This document shows positions 22,846-27,712 of a stretch of DNA of 41,322 bases, piece by piece. The DNA is taken from NCBI GenBank assembly GCA_029238255.1, contig JAQWGK010000017.1:1-41322 (forward strand), read 5' to 3'. Under the pieces are notes generated by a model. It did not search any database and was not told where the DNA came from. It saw only the letters and a program-made list of their open reading frames with translations. Numbering within the stretch: the first letter of the stretch is position 1; each line of letters begins with the position of its first letter. The translations under genes and the position numbers were made by a program. This DNA comes from Porticoccaceae bacterium. Its GTDB lineage: Bacteria > Pseudomonadota > Gammaproteobacteria > Pseudomonadales > Porticoccaceae.

Positions 22846-23266
22846 TACTGTTAGACCCCTTATTCCGACAAAGGAACGTCACTAGTTTCGAAACGGTGGT
22901 CAAAACCGCCAGCGTCAATACCCCCCCCCCTATTGGCAGCAGTGTTGGTGCTAACATCCCTAGCTAAAGAGTAAAAAATTTCCAACCCCTAAATTGAATG
23001 TCTTGTAAACATGATCAATCAGGTTTTCCTGTATATGAGCGCCAATGGCAGCGATGAAATGATCATCGCCGATAAAATCTTATTGCCGAGCAACCAGCCT
23101 TTGCGGATATTGGGCTTAAGCCTATTGTGAAGTTGACCATTAGGGATCTTAATTTGGTATAGAGTTTAGTTATAAGACTGTTGTGAGACCAACTCAACTG
23201 TAAAACTTTTTGTTTCGGTAGGAGACCTTTTTATAGTCTATTCTACTTGAAATTACTTATGAATGG
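22846..23266. other. Gene-free gap with a possible coding remnant and a C homopolymer
   Basis: 421 bases between ihfB and the AAA ATPase gene. A run of ten or more Cs lies at about 22920-22931. At about 23080-23160 a short open stretch reads NLIAEQPAFADIGLKPIV and then KLTIRDLNLV before a stop, in a frame interrupted by a stop upstream. An overlapping frame from the ATG at 23036 reads 31 codons. It has the look of a decayed gene end, but I do not recognise a family. Confidence 0.35.
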
Positions 23267-24688
23267 ATGCAGGAAATGATCAGGGAAATTGAGATTACAA
23301 ATTTTCGCAGTATAAGACATGACAGTATCTCATTGGAGCCATTTACCGTACTGATAGGTGCAAACGGTTCTGGAAAATCCAATTTGGTAAAGGCACTAGA
23401 ATTTCTATCTGACTTACCTAGTGCAGGCATAGATTATGCAGTAAGCAAGCAGGGCGGTCGTGACGGTATACTGCCTAAGGAGATACCGATAAAGGAAATT
23501 GCACGCTCTCCAACCATTATTCGCTATAAAGTATGTTTGCCCCCTCCTGACGATGATGCCTCTCGACCTACATCCGTTGACGTTGTACACGAGTTTAAGC
23601 TCGGATTTACAAAAAAAAATACTGGAATAAGTATTAAAAATGATGAGCTCACTTTTCATAAAGTTCTATATGTTGGGAGGCGTCTTAATGATGCAAAAAA
23701 AACACAGACTGTCGAGTTAGGAGCTCCTGAGCATCCAAACTCAGATTCTCTATTCAGATTAACTCAAAGAGGAAAGAGGGTAGCCTATGACTTTGACCCA
23801 CCTATTTCTAAAGAGACACTAGACGATTATGTTCATTGGTTAGGTTTAGATGTTTTAAGAGATCAAATATCAACTCCTAATGAATTAAAGCAGTTTTTAA
23901 GTACCTATAAAAAGTGGCGTAATACAAAGCGCTCTGGATTGGGTGGAGATAATTTAAATGAGCCGAAAGGGCTGCTAACCGACCCAGCCATCAATACAGC
24001 TATAAATTTTGCACCTCAGAATTACATGTTTCTTACAAATATATCCTCTATTAGACGATACGATTTACTACTTCATGAGCTTCGGCAGGAGCAACCACCT
24101 AGTGATTCAGCTCAACTGTCAAAGGTTGGCGCAAATATGCCGTCGGCATTCCGCAAGCTTGCATCGGATTCTGGGGTTATCAATAGATTGCGATCAAGCT
24201 TTGACGCTATTGCTCCTCATATTAGAGAGATTAAGGCATCCTCTCTTCGAACCGGCAAGGAATTTATAGAGTTTGTCGAGTCGGTTCATGGTCGAGGAAT
24301 TGAGTCTTGGGAGTCATCAGATGGGAGTTTAAGGGCATTAGCTATATTAGTCGCTTTAGAAACGGCTGATGAAGGTCAGACTGTAATAATTGAAGAGCCG
24401 GAGCAAAATCTTCACCCTTGGGCCATCCGAACTGTTATTGATCATATGAAGACGATTGTAGAGGAGAAGGGTGTACAAATAATTGTTACAACACACTCCG
24501 AGCACGTTCTTGAGCGAGTGAACGCTGATGAAGTGCGTGTTGTATCTCGAAGTCGGGGCAAAGGCACAATTTTCAAGAGGATTGACCAGATCATTACAGG
24601 AAGGAAAATAGTAATGGGAGAGGTAGGTCGACTATGGGTCAAAGGGCTTCTTGGAGGGGTTCCTGAAGTAGAAGAGGATATGCTATGA
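23267..24688 (+). CDS. AAA/ABC-type ATPase, OLD/RecF-like, probable defence component
   Basis: A 473-residue ATPase of the AAA_15/AAA_21 (RecF/OLD-like) type. It begins IREIEITNFRSIRHDSI, the usual start of such proteins, then Walker A GANGSGKSN (31-39). After a long divergent central region come the signature-like SSDGSLRALAI (350-360), Walker B TVIIEEPEQNLHP (372-383) and the switch TTHSEHVLE (408-416). No nuclease domain is fused to it. The gene overlaps the next by 4 bases (ATGA at 24685-24688), so the two products are probably made together and act together. Such ATPase plus TOPRIM-like pairs include AbiL, RloAB-like and PARIS anti-phage systems. The region is visibly AT-richer than its neighbours, which suggests transfer. 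The start could also be the ATG at 23276; neither has an ideal ribosome-binding site. Confidence 0.88.
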   Translation: MQEMIREIEITNFRSIRHDSISLEPFTVLIGANGSGKSNLVKALEFLSDLPSAGIDYAVSKQGGRDGILPKEIPIKEIARSPTIIRYKVCLPPPDDDASRPTSVDVVHEFKLGFTKKNTGISIKNDELTFHKVLYVGRRLNDAKKTQTVELGAPEHPNSDSLFRLTQRGKRVAYDFDPPISKETLDDYVHWLGLDVLRDQISTPNELKQFLSTYKKWRNTKRSGLGGDNLNEPKGLLTDPAINTAINFAPQNYMFLTNISSIRRYDLLLHELRQEQPPSDSAQLSKVGANMPSAFRKLASDSGVINRLRSSFDAIAPHIREIKASSLRTGKEFIEFVESVHGRGIESWESSDGSLRALAILVALETADEGQTVIIEEPEQNLHPWAIRTVIDHMKTIVEEKGVQIIVTTHSEHVLERVNADEVRVVSRSRGKGTIFKRIDQIITGRKIVMGEVGRLWVKGLLGGVPEVEEDML

Positions 24689-25341
24689 ACTCAAGGCCTC
24701 CGGTAGGGTTTGTAGTTGAAGGCCATGGTGAGTTCGCATGTTACCCATCTCTATTTTGTCGAACGGTAAAAATTAGTGGCTTGTATGCTCCCGCTGTAAA
24801 TGCTGGGGGTTGTGGTAGCATTGTAAGTAATCTAGGTGAACACCTAACGGACTTGGTATCTTCGAGGTTCCCAGTTTCTGTTATTGTAACTATTGATCTA
24901 CAGGATGCTTTGGATCAGCAGCTAGCACGAGATTCGGTGGAGTTGCTTGATTTATTGAATTCAGAAATTCAAAAATGGCAAGAAAAAGCAGTCTCTGACA
25001 GTAGATGTCATCCCCTACCTGAGAGCATAGTCGCTGTCCTACAGGTGAGGAAGTTTGAGTCTTGGCTTATATCTGACACTGTTAGTTTAAAAGCTAGTAA
25101 TATTCTCAACAGTGAAGCCCCAGATATTACAGATGCTGAATCAGTTGAGTCGCCCTGTAGATTTTTACAAAAACACCTCATTATTTCAGGCGACTCTAAA
25201 AATCCAAAGACTGCAAAAATCATAGTTTCCAAGATCGTGCCGGATAAAATGCGCGTTAATTCTAGGTCATTTGCTATTTTTTATAACGAATCAAAAACAG
25301 CCTATGAACTATGGATTTCAAAGGGCTTTGATCTTAATTGA
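24685..25341 (+). CDS. DUF4276-family TOPRIM-like protein, probable defence effector
   Basis: A 218-residue protein with the arrangement of the DUF4276 family. VVEGHGE at 10-16 (acidic E12 and E16) resembles the TOPRIM glutamate motif. A hydrophobic strand ends in TIDLQDALD with D71 and D74, in the place of the TOPRIM acidic pair. KFESWLISD at 123-131 is the conserved EaWL-x-aD segment of the family. TOPRIM folds bind divalent metal and cut nucleic acid, so a nuclease role switched by the ATPase is a reasonable inference. The acidic spacing is D-x-x-D, not the textbook D-x-D, so activity is not certain. Translation is coupled to the ATPase gene by the ATGA overlap. No third gene follows. Confidence 0.78.
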   Translation: MNSRPPVGFVVEGHGEFACYPSLFCRTVKISGLYAPAVNAGGCGSIVSNLGEHLTDLVSSRFPVSVIVTIDLQDALDQQLARDSVELLDLLNSEIQKWQEKAVSDSRCHPLPESIVAVLQVRKFESWLISDTVSLKASNILNSEAPDITDAESVESPCRFLQKHLIISGDSKNPKTAKIIVSKIVPDKMRVNSRSFAIFYNESKTAYELWISKGFDLN

Positions 25342-25681
25342 TAAAGCTCTTTTTGAGCCCCATTATTTTGCTTAAAATTTAAGTGGCATCTTAAAAAGGT
25401 GCGAATATTGTTTTATGTATCAACTTGCAGAATTTGCTTTTATTTCAATATCTAGACAATCTTCCTACGCTGCTTACTACCTCATGTGAGAATCAATTAG
25501 GAAGAACGTTTCAATATATGACGAAGTTTGCCTATCGGACCTGTGCTAATTTCCTCTTGTGAGAGGTTGTTTTCCCCGCAGTCATGTGGATTTATCAGAA
25601 TGACGATACTCTATTGTGATGACATTTCCGTTTTTTTGGGGTTGATTTCAGCCTTCGCTGGTGTGAGGAAAAATAACTAAA
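25342..25681. other. Gene-free AT-rich gap downstream of the AAA/DUF4276 pair
   Basis: 340 bases between the end of the DUF4276 gene and the end of the convergent rep gene. I see no open frame of note, no tRNA, no integrase remnant and no clear direct repeat. GCTC-TTTTT-GAGC at about 25348-25360 is a weak hairpin without a good T-tract. The high AT content matches the preceding islet, so the boundary of the transferred DNA probably lies near the rep stop. Confidence 0.5.
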
Positions 25682-27712
25682 TCACCCAAACAACGACTTC
25701 AAAGCCGCCAACGATTCCTCACCCTTAGCCTGATTCTCCTCAGCACTTAACTCAACACCACCACCAATCCGAATCAAATCATCCTCAGGCAGTTCATCAA
25801 TAAACCGACTAGGCGTTGTCGCTGAGGTCTCGCCAAACTGGGTGCGCTGTCGAGCACAGGTCATGGTCAGCGTGCGCTGGGCTCTGGTAATACCCACATA
25901 GGCAAGGCGTCGCTCTTCTTCTATCTGGCCGCCTTCAACGCTGTTTTTGTGGGGCAGAATATCCTCTTCCATACCGACCATAAACACATGCAAAAACTCC
26001 AATCCCTTTGCGGCATGAAGGGTCATTAGCTGCACTTTATCGTCGGCGGATTCTTCTTTTTCCCGGTCGAGCAGATCTCGAAGAATTAGTTTTGAGATGG
26101 CATTTTCAATTTTGCTATCACCGTTCTCTTCATCTGTGGCAGTCTCATCATTCTTGAGCACCTGAGCTAATTGATTGAGCAAAAACTGCACATTCTCCCA
26201 GCGCTTTTGAGCCACATGATCGTTGCTGGCATTTTGTCTTAGCCAGTCGAGGTAATCGATATCGTCGAGCATCTCATTAATGGCTTCAATGGGTTTGCCG
26301 TTGTAGACATTACGATTGATATTTTGCACCCAGTGTTTAAAGCGTTTTAGGCGCTCCAGATTTTTAGGGGGCATGGTGGCGGTAAGACCGACTTCATCGA
26401 TGGCATCATAGAGCGAGATACTGCGTTTATTGGAATACTCGCCAAGTTTCTCTAGCGTGGTAGGGCCGATCTGCCGTCTTGGGGTATTGATAATCCGCAG
26501 CATGGCGTTGTCGTCATCCGGATTAATAATTAACCGCAGGTAGGCCATAATATCTTTGATTTCGGTCTTGGCATAAAACGATTGGCCGCCGGTAATCTCG
26601 TAGGGAATACTCTGGGATTGCAGCTTAATCTCGACCATCTTGGCTTGATAGTTGCCGCGATAGAGCACCGCGAAATCACTGTATTTACAGCGCCGTTTTA
26701 GGCGCATATCGATAATTTCGTTGACCACCCGTTCGCATTCGCCCTCTTCATTATCACTACTGATAAAGCGCAGAGGATCGCCGGGGCCCAGTTCACTCCA
26801 CAGGGCTTTGCTGATCAGGTGAGGGTTGTTATCGATTAGGGTGTTGGCGGCTTTTAGGATACGGCCGGTGGAGCGGTAGTTCTGCTCGAGCTTAACGATA
26901 TTCAGTGCCGGAAAGTCTTCCTGTAGTTGCATCAGGTTTTCCGGTCTGGCACCCCGCCAGGCGTAAATCGATTGGTCATCATCGCCTACTACCGTAAGCG
27001 CTTGCTTTTCATTAACCAGAGTTTTTACCAGTTCGTACTGAGCGAGGTTAGTATCCTGATATTCATCAACCAGCAGATAGCGAATGCGCCGCTGCCACTT
27101 GGCAAGCACCTCAGGCTGGCTTTTAAATAGCAGTACCGGGATCATAATTAGATCATCGAAGTCGACGGCGTTATAGGCTTTGAGGGCGCGCTGATAGCGC
27201 TCGTAGAGCATAGCGATAGCTTGTTCGCCGGTGCTGTTGGATGCATTGGCTGTCTGATGGGGTTCTAAGAGGCCATTTTTCCAGTTGGAGATGGTGTTCT
27301 GGGCGGTGTCGATCAGCTTCTCATCGAGCTCAGTATGGCGTGCCAATAGCTCTTTAAGCAGGTTTTTACAGTCTTCCTGATCCAGTATCGAGAAGCCGGG
27401 CTTAAAGCCCAGAGCTTTGCTCTCGGTGCGAATAATATTCAGGCCGAGGTTGTGAAAGGTGGAGACGGTCAGACCTCTGCCTTCGGTTTTGCCGAGCAGG
27501 GCAGAGACTCGCGCCTTCATTTCGCGGGCGGCTTTATTGGTAAAGGTGACGGCGGCAATATTGCGTGCGGGTATACCGCACTTTTCGACCAGGTAGGCGA
27601 TCTTGCGCGTGATTACACTGGTTTTACCACTACCGGCACCGGCCAGTACTAGCAGTGGGCCATCGATATACTTCAGCGCTGCGTGCTGTTGGGGGTTTAA
27701 GTTTTGCGACAT
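25682..27712 (-). CDS. rep: ATP-dependent DNA helicase Rep
   Basis: A 676-residue UvrD/Rep-type superfamily 1 helicase. Motif I LAGAGSGKTSVITRK is near residue 22, Ia TFTNKAAREMK, II LLVDEYQDTN, III VVGDDDQSIYAWRGA, IV LEQNYRS, V VQLMTLHAAKGLEF and VI ERRLAYVGITRAQ. Length and segments such as TISNWKN, FDDLIMIPVLLF and INPDDDNAMLRIINTPRR match E. coli Rep better than UvrD. Rep moves 3' to 5' and helps replication forks past bound proteins. It lies 7 bases downstream of valS on the same strand. Confidence 0.95.
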   Translation of the reverse strand: MSQNLNPQQHAALKYIDGPLLVLAGAGSGKTSVITRKIAYLVEKCGIPARNIAAVTFTNKAAREMKARVSALLGKTEGRGLTVSTFHNLGLNIIRTESKALGFKPGFSILDQEDCKNLLKELLARHTELDEKLIDTAQNTISNWKNGLLEPHQTANASNSTGEQAIAMLYERYQRALKAYNAVDFDDLIMIPVLLFKSQPEVLAKWQRRIRYLLVDEYQDTNLAQYELVKTLVNEKQALTVVGDDDQSIYAWRGARPENLMQLQEDFPALNIVKLEQNYRSTGRILKAANTLIDNNPHLISKALWSELGPGDPLRFISSDNEEGECERVVNEIIDMRLKRRCKYSDFAVLYRGNYQAKMVEIKLQSQSIPYEITGGQSFYAKTEIKDIMAYLRLIINPDDDNAMLRIINTPRRQIGPTTLEKLGEYSNKRSISLYDAIDEVGLTATMPPKNLERLKRFKHWVQNINRNVYNGKPIEAINEMLDDIDYLDWLRQNASNDHVAQKRWENVQFLLNQLAQVLKNDETATDEENGDSKIENAISKLILRDLLDREKEESADDKVQLMTLHAAKGLEFLHVFMVGMEEDILPHKNSVEGGQIEEERRLAYVGITRAQRTLTMTCARQRTQFGETSATTPSRFIDELPEDDLIRIGGGVELSAEENQAKGEESLAALKSLFG

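Follow-up and report, generated by a model that had tools for sequence, protein, structure and literature searches.

On the basis of profile matches, the two-gene unit at positions 23267..25341 of the window (the whole 41,322-nucleotide stretch analysed, from a Porticoccaceae bacterium) is a copy of HEC-01, an already catalogued candidate defence pair, and not a new system. The unit encodes an ATPase followed by a DUF4276 protein (DUF, domain of unknown function) and was probably acquired recently as a stand-alone HEC-01. An earlier interpretation made from the letters alone (the sequence-only reading) had described two genes joined by an ATGA overlap, and both the coordinates and the overlap were exact. 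The pair itself is a good but ordinary example. Its significance lies in a tie between DUF4276 and the TOPRIM/RloB nucleases, obtained by profile comparison with controls, in three invariant acids that can be named as mutation targets (E12, D71, and E125), and in a compact stand-alone HEC-01 pair at a junction that in relatives is clearly seen either closed or holding other cargo. The pair is a straightforward model in which to study the working of split ATPase-TOPRIM systems other than PARIS. The features of the locus are as follows.

23267..24688, + strand: HEC-01A-type OLD/ABC ATPase, 473 aa (ORF, Pfam AAA_21, PADLOC HEC-01A, motifs)
24685..25341, + strand: HEC-01B-type DUF4276 TOPRIM-like protein, 218 aa (ORF, Pfam, PADLOC HEC-01B, family profile, AlphaFold2)
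22846..23266, no strand: left spacer with decayed fdhD/fdsD (formate dehydrogenase) pieces (identity to relatives' loci)
25342..25681, no strand: right spacer, GC 0.365 (no match among 32 stretches fetched from relatives)

Assignment of the pair to HEC-01

The ATPase matched AAA_21 in the Pfam search (110.9 bits) and the PADLOC HEC-01A model PDLC04179 (389.4 bits), with residues 4-467 aligned to positions 1-456 of the 459 in the profile. The complete ABC motif set described earlier was recovered: Walker A (GANGSGKS) at residue 31, a signature-like motif (SDGSLRAL) at residue 351, Walker B within VIIEEPEQNLHP at residue 373, and the H-switch (TTHS) at residue 408. No TOPRIM domain was found in the ATPase by the Pfam search. 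Because the HEC-01A match starts at residue 4, the protein may begin at the second ATG (23276). The small protein matched Pfam DUF4276 (40.4 bits, cut-off 30.2) and the HEC-01B model PDLC04198 (140 bits; residues 6-206 on positions 4-205 of 211), and its seven PADLOC rows were every one HEC-01B. In NCBIfam no row was above its cut-off for either the ATPase (best 25 of 86 rows) or the small protein (1 row), and the ATPase alone had no match in viral contigs. The sequence-only reading held that the pair might fall outside every named type. The nearly end-to-end matches of both proteins to the HEC-01A and HEC-01B models overturn that view and rule out a new unnamed system, a PADLOC match being a resemblance to candidate-system models and not proof of function. 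Its two marks of a variant also fell away, as the second acidic position of the D-x-x-D spacing varies across the DUF4276 family and the two-gene unit without a third gene is usual for DUF4276 in the class sample.

That sample comprised 369 genomes of the class, in which a profile search found DUF4276 in 39, in 32 of them above the Pfam cut-off. A HEC-01A-type ATPase match lay no more than 1.5 kb upstream on the same strand for at least 53 of the 57 DUF4276 matches; the 57 include the window and count a split gene in G303 twice, and 53 is a lower bound. When 29 DUF4276 loci were read (the window's own left out), an upstream frame of more than 120 aa was present in 26, 25 of which carried Walker A; the three loci lacking such a frame were L015, L030, and L035, and a narrow Walker B pattern was also fitted in 16 of the 29. 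Searches by motif and for relatives yielded nine further loci. In six of these, all on viral contigs (L185, L186, L187, L188, L192, and L193), the DUF4276 frame follows an ATPase frame with Walker A, and the same arrangement was seen in Nocardia (L173); L189 and L191 are 34-aa chance frames and not DUF4276. The motif scan had returned 48 genome-contig and four viral-contig stretches, with the Nocardia protein the sole clear DUF4276 member. Close relatives of the small protein were found neither by pattern scans of genome and viral contigs nor by tblastn against plasmids and phages.

Two loci from this sampling stood out. L040 (G196:C32 50262-53584) appears to hold a tandem of two HEC-01-like ATPase/DUF4276 units, with successive matches that include several to the ATPase and two to DUF4276. 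At L006 (2-775) G140 holds a DUF4276 gene fragment without an upstream ATPase, and the frames adjoining it look to us like transposase.

HEC stands for Hma-embedded candidate, and the set, which reportedly comes from a 2024 preprint of Payne and colleagues, was discovered as genes beside other defence genes, a setting that is not a definition of a copy. Both window proteins fit the HEC-01 models and are encoded side by side, the ATPase gene preceding that for DUF4276; the window pair differs in standing alone between core genes, and the copies embedded in E. coli BREX-1 fit other models best (PDLC04176/PDLC04185). According to passages of later papers, several HECs have antiviral activity (PMC12988326), HEC systems have been confirmed to confer phage resistance, HEC-04 joining an ATPase and a TOPRIM domain in one fusion protein (both PMC12111858), HEC-05 and HEC-06 are discussed in PMC11411939, and HEC-01 is among the predicted systems of Desulfovibrio piger (PMC12724379). 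No antiviral test of HEC-01 itself was found in the accessible passages of the literature citing the HEC set, its mechanism was not the topic of any title among the matches listed from the open-access literature, and a full-text search of the open-access literature for DUF4276 returned none.

The link of this family with defence stood up: BREX-1 harbours a sister HEC-01 pair, and the models were drawn from a catalogue of defence systems. A tblastn search of plasmids with the ATPase gave 46 records, all below 60% identity. On the E. coli plasmid NZ_CP010234 the matched pair sits between pglX and pglZ of BREX-1 and scores 604 bits for HEC-01A and 330 bits for HEC-01B in PADLOC. Of 5426 complete E. 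coli genomes, 26 contained DNA like this pair, and in every one of the 26 the match touches both pglX and pglZ; the window pair's DNA had no match in the E. coli genomes. The E. coli copies are only distantly related to the window pair, the ATPase being 28% identical over 47% of its length, and, as distant sisters, therefore show the habit of the family and not that of the window copy. OLD-ABC ATPases with TOPRIM nucleases are described as back-up effectors of BREX in PMC12839542.

Relationship of DUF4276 to TOPRIM proteins

The TOPRIM motif consists of a conserved Glu after strand 1, an Asp after a later strand, and the second Asp of a DxD. The acidic residues previously picked out in the small protein (E12, E16, D71, and D74) were correctly placed, and a TOPRIM-type Glu and Asp are present as E12 and D71. 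In alignment A3, E12, D71, and E125 occupy columns that are invariant in 29 of 29 DUF4276 proteins; of the 30 DUF4276 loci retrieved in addition to that of the window, 23 entered A3, and the partial or masked loci L015, L021, L027, L030, L031, and L035 were left out. The second acidic (DxD) position varies among the family, and the window protein reads D71-L-Q-D74, with Q73 at that position and D74 adjoining it.

Judged by profile comparison, the DUF4276 family is TOPRIM-like. With E values that hold for one comparison, HHalign aligned the DUF4276 profile (n = 29) to RloB (n = 10) with a probability of 89% (E 2.4e-6, 106 columns) and to OLD-TOPRIM (n = 13) with a probability of 87% (E 4e-6, 66 columns). 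The targets comprised 10 of 13 RloB places and 13 of 18 OLD-TOPRIM places, partial or weakest ones being excluded. The RloB alignment pairs the EG-E motif, the Asp, and the FE-W motif with the DUF4276 profile. In 40 column shuffles per target the maximum was 0.97% for RloB and 0.53% for OLD-TOPRIM, and 23 unrelated proteins run as single sequences reached at most 0.96%. Removal of the window sequence from the profile still left 88% (RloB) and 86% (OLD-TOPRIM), and the window protein matched a profile of the other 28 DUF4276 proteins at 98%. The window sequence alone gave 4% against RloB and 1% against OLD, and the RloB and OLD profiles gave only 13% against each other; because of these values, the TOPRIM assignment rests on the family profile. 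The earlier description of the small protein as TOPRIM-like therefore holds for the family profile and not for the window sequence by itself. The Pfam RloB model had no match to the window protein at E up to 1. In a PDB sequence search the small protein found nothing, and the best profile match (E 0.014) was a designed protein, which was not convincing.

Structure prediction with AlphaFold2 gave a pLDDT of 34.5 from the single sequence of the small protein and a pLDDT of 81.4 with a pTM of 0.80 from eight sequences (A7). In the model, E12 lies just past a strand at 7-11, D71 ends a strand at 65-71, and E125 is in the helix after a strand at 114-120. Among the 50 PDB rows listed by Foldseek, the top probability (0.85) belonged to the C-terminal region of Xanthomonas OLD (TM 0.43/0.46, E 0.036), and among the 50 viral rows listed it belonged to a RloB-like protein (0.69, not significant). 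Nothing was found at an E value of 0.001 or better. PDB row 1 and many others listed were RecA-fold proteins (TM ~0.28), and a GDSL lipase was present at TM 0.36/0.43. Of the expectation that the predicted structure of the 218-residue protein would reveal a TOPRIM fold, the part that stood is that an OLD domain was the most probable PDB row listed; significance did not follow. The modelled fold lends tentative support to a TOPRIM assignment. Neither of the refuting conditions set out with the sequence-only reading counted against it, given the profile alignment of DUF4276 with TOPRIM families and the accessory status of the pair.

Among known families, RloB (PF13707) aligns with the DUF4276 family profile as described above, but the window protein differs in lacking a Pfam RloB match of its own. 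PARIS (AriA/AriB) shares the split arrangement of an OLD-type ATPase with a small TOPRIM-like protein, whereas the window small protein is DUF4276, with neither a DUF4435 match in Pfam (the family of AriB) nor an AriB row in PADLOC, and the window ATPase scores 108 bits for AriA versus 389 for HEC-01A. PARIS was rejected as the family, the small protein having only DUF4276 in Pfam and only HEC-01B rows in PADLOC. DUF4435 itself gave matches in only 2 of 119 genomes. AbiL (AbiLi/AbiLii) is similar in that the window ATPase matches AbiLi (112 bits) and different in that the small protein has no AbiLii row in PADLOC, on which ground AbiL was also set aside.

The ihfB/rep junction

The pair is AT-richer than its surroundings, as had been noted, with a GC content of 0.414 versus 0.494 for the window once the insert is excluded, and GC3 values of 0.331 (ATPase) and 0.324 (DUF4276 gene) versus 0.457-0.589 in 13 other long ORFs. 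Its neighbours are core genes by Pfam, in agreement with the housekeeping setting first proposed: a cytidylate kinase, an S1-domain protein, an HU/IHF family protein, a UvrD/Rep helicase (25682-27712, on the strand opposite to the pair), and a valyl-tRNA synthetase. We take the HU/IHF-family and UvrD/Rep neighbours to be ihfB and rep, respectively. PADLOC gave no specific defence gene among the 10 neighbours of the pair; the helicase matched GajB (best 360 bits) and RTasHel models (best 383 bits overall), and the cytidylate kinase had a weak match.

The flanks had been called gene-free. This was right insofar as spacers of 421 bp (left) and 340 bp (right) are present, but the left one holds broken formate-dehydrogenase gene pieces. 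Stretches within 22846-23266 are 72-86% identical to relatives' loci in or adjoining FdhD and FdsD genes, the FdsD-type pieces corresponding to the formate dehydrogenase delta subunit genes of relatives, which suggests that they are probably earlier cargo of the junction. Convincing repeats marking the ends of the insert were not found, promoter and terminator counts around the pair were no better than in shuffles, and the two RNA-family matches were both below the families' own cut-offs and were taken as chance.

A survey of the same site in relatives revealed closed, wider, and other-cargo states and the pair to be accessory. The small protein was present in 0 of 34 other same-genus genomes and 0 of 21 of the order (1 of 56 including the window's own), and the pair is thus not core at this site; across 390 genomes of the order, the HEC-01B model PDLC04198 picked up, besides the window copy, a single weak hit (E 4.6e-4). 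Among the 34 same-genus genomes the ihfB region could be located in 28, of which 25 were readable because three stretches were cut by contig ends. The ihfB-rep distance was 4-169 bp in 12 of these relatives and 0.8-4 kb in seven, rep was not within 6 kb of ihfB in the other six, and the gap in the window is 2836 bp. The helicase was at the ihfB site without the pair in 19 of the 25. PADLOC applied to the 14 frames of the seven wide gaps gave defence-model matches in two gaps and none in the other five: in the G002 gap (L100) AbiEi was matched at 305 bits and a short frame resembled AbiEii at 222 bits, and the G023 gap (L101) contains a 96-aa frame like candidate PDC-S09 (105 bits), with a weak HTH row as well. 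Elsewhere, the G016 gap carries a molybdopterin oxidoreductase, a short-chain dehydrogenase, and a sigma-factor piece, and the G005 gap an S41 peptidase. From these states (L097-L124) it follows that the junction gains and loses cargo that is only sometimes of defence type. We conclude that cargo turns over at the ihfB/rep junction within the genus.

Possible mode of action and rival readings

The reading that we consider likely is that of a stand-alone HEC-01, horizontally acquired into the ihfB/rep junction, in which an OLD-family ABC ATPase acts with a separate RloB-like TOPRIM protein as a PARIS-like sensor ATPase controlling a nuclease. For the pair itself we infer complex formation, sensing, nuclease activity, its substrate, and defence. 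In PARIS, according to PMC12409363, an AriA hexamer holds AriB until a phage trigger releases it, and AriB is a two-metal TOPRIM endoribonuclease that cuts tRNA. A course of sensing, release or activation, and cutting appears most likely for the window pair because it has the same kinds of parts as PARIS with a different TOPRIM family, and a sense-and-release mechanism is proposed by that likeness. The HEC-01A ATPase would assemble into an oligomer that keeps the TOPRIM protein inactive and would sense a phage product or damage; upon triggering, the DUF4276 protein would be activated or released and would cut nucleic acid, with E12, D71, and E125, and probably also E16, D74, and D131, as the putative metal ligands. 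The target would more probably be RNA such as tRNA than DNA, a preference weakly indicated by the RloB resemblance and the split layout, and cutting would stop infection at the expense of the infected cell.

The same ATPase-TOPRIM defence pair might instead have a DNA nuclease of the OLD/Gabija kind as its effector, held in a permanent complex and not acting as a released tRNase, which is possible although we lean away from it. Consistent with such an effector are the OLD TOPRIM domain as the most probable PDB row listed, the OLD profile match, the statements in passages of PMC12796447 and PMC12409363 that OLD-family enzymes cut or nick DNA, and the GajB match of the neighbouring UvrD/Rep helicase. 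The RloB profile match, however, is longer and takes in the FE-W motif, and the two-gene split is shared with PARIS, in which the effector is described as a tRNase (PMC12409363). As for Gabija and the fused OLD nucleases, they share with the pair an ABC ATPase and a TOPRIM-like part, but the window pair consists of two genes, its ATPase has no TOPRIM match, and the neighbouring helicase is core. Gabija, with a TOPRIM domain fused in GajA and GajB in tandem, was rejected because the helicase lies on the opposite strand and, in 19 of 25 relatives, occupies this place although the pair is absent, and for the same reasons we regard its GajB match as a general UvrD resemblance.

Readings outside defence were judged considerably less probable. 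A pair that serves as a toxin-antitoxin module or for its own selfish maintenance, and is not specifically directed at phage, would be in keeping with the Pfam description of AAA_21 as a putative AbiEii toxin family, the accessory distribution, and a window site lacking specific defence neighbours, but the sister group inside BREX-1 operons and the origin of the models in a defence catalogue make it improbable. It is very unlikely that the acquisition is decayed and non-functional: Q73 in the DxD region, the decayed pieces in the left spacer, and the sole copy in the genus sample could be read in that way, whereas both frames are full length, the ATPase motifs are intact, and the invariant E12, D71, and E125 are kept. 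Least probable of all is a cellular DNA-maintenance function of the sort reported for the archaeal OLD protein Cran1 in PMC12796447; OLD-family proteins outside defence do exist (same paper), and the neighbours are core genes, but the small protein is missing in all 34 of the other same-genus genomes and the pair is AT-rich, and it is therefore not a core function of the lineage. An extension of the stand-alone HEC-01 reading, which we think unlikely, is that HEC-01 is a separate RloB-like branch of the split OLD systems whose active site needs only E-D-E (E12, D71, and E125) and not DxD, with a cutting chemistry or substrate different from that of AriB, and which works both alone and as a BREX-1 back-up.

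The source genome also encodes a fused ATPase/OLD-TOPRIM-like protein of 626 aa (L222 1138-3018, G000:C38), for which the best PADLOC row was Old (104.5 bits) and Pfam OLD-like_TOPRIM fell just below its cut-off; a second OLD-family gene is therefore present there.
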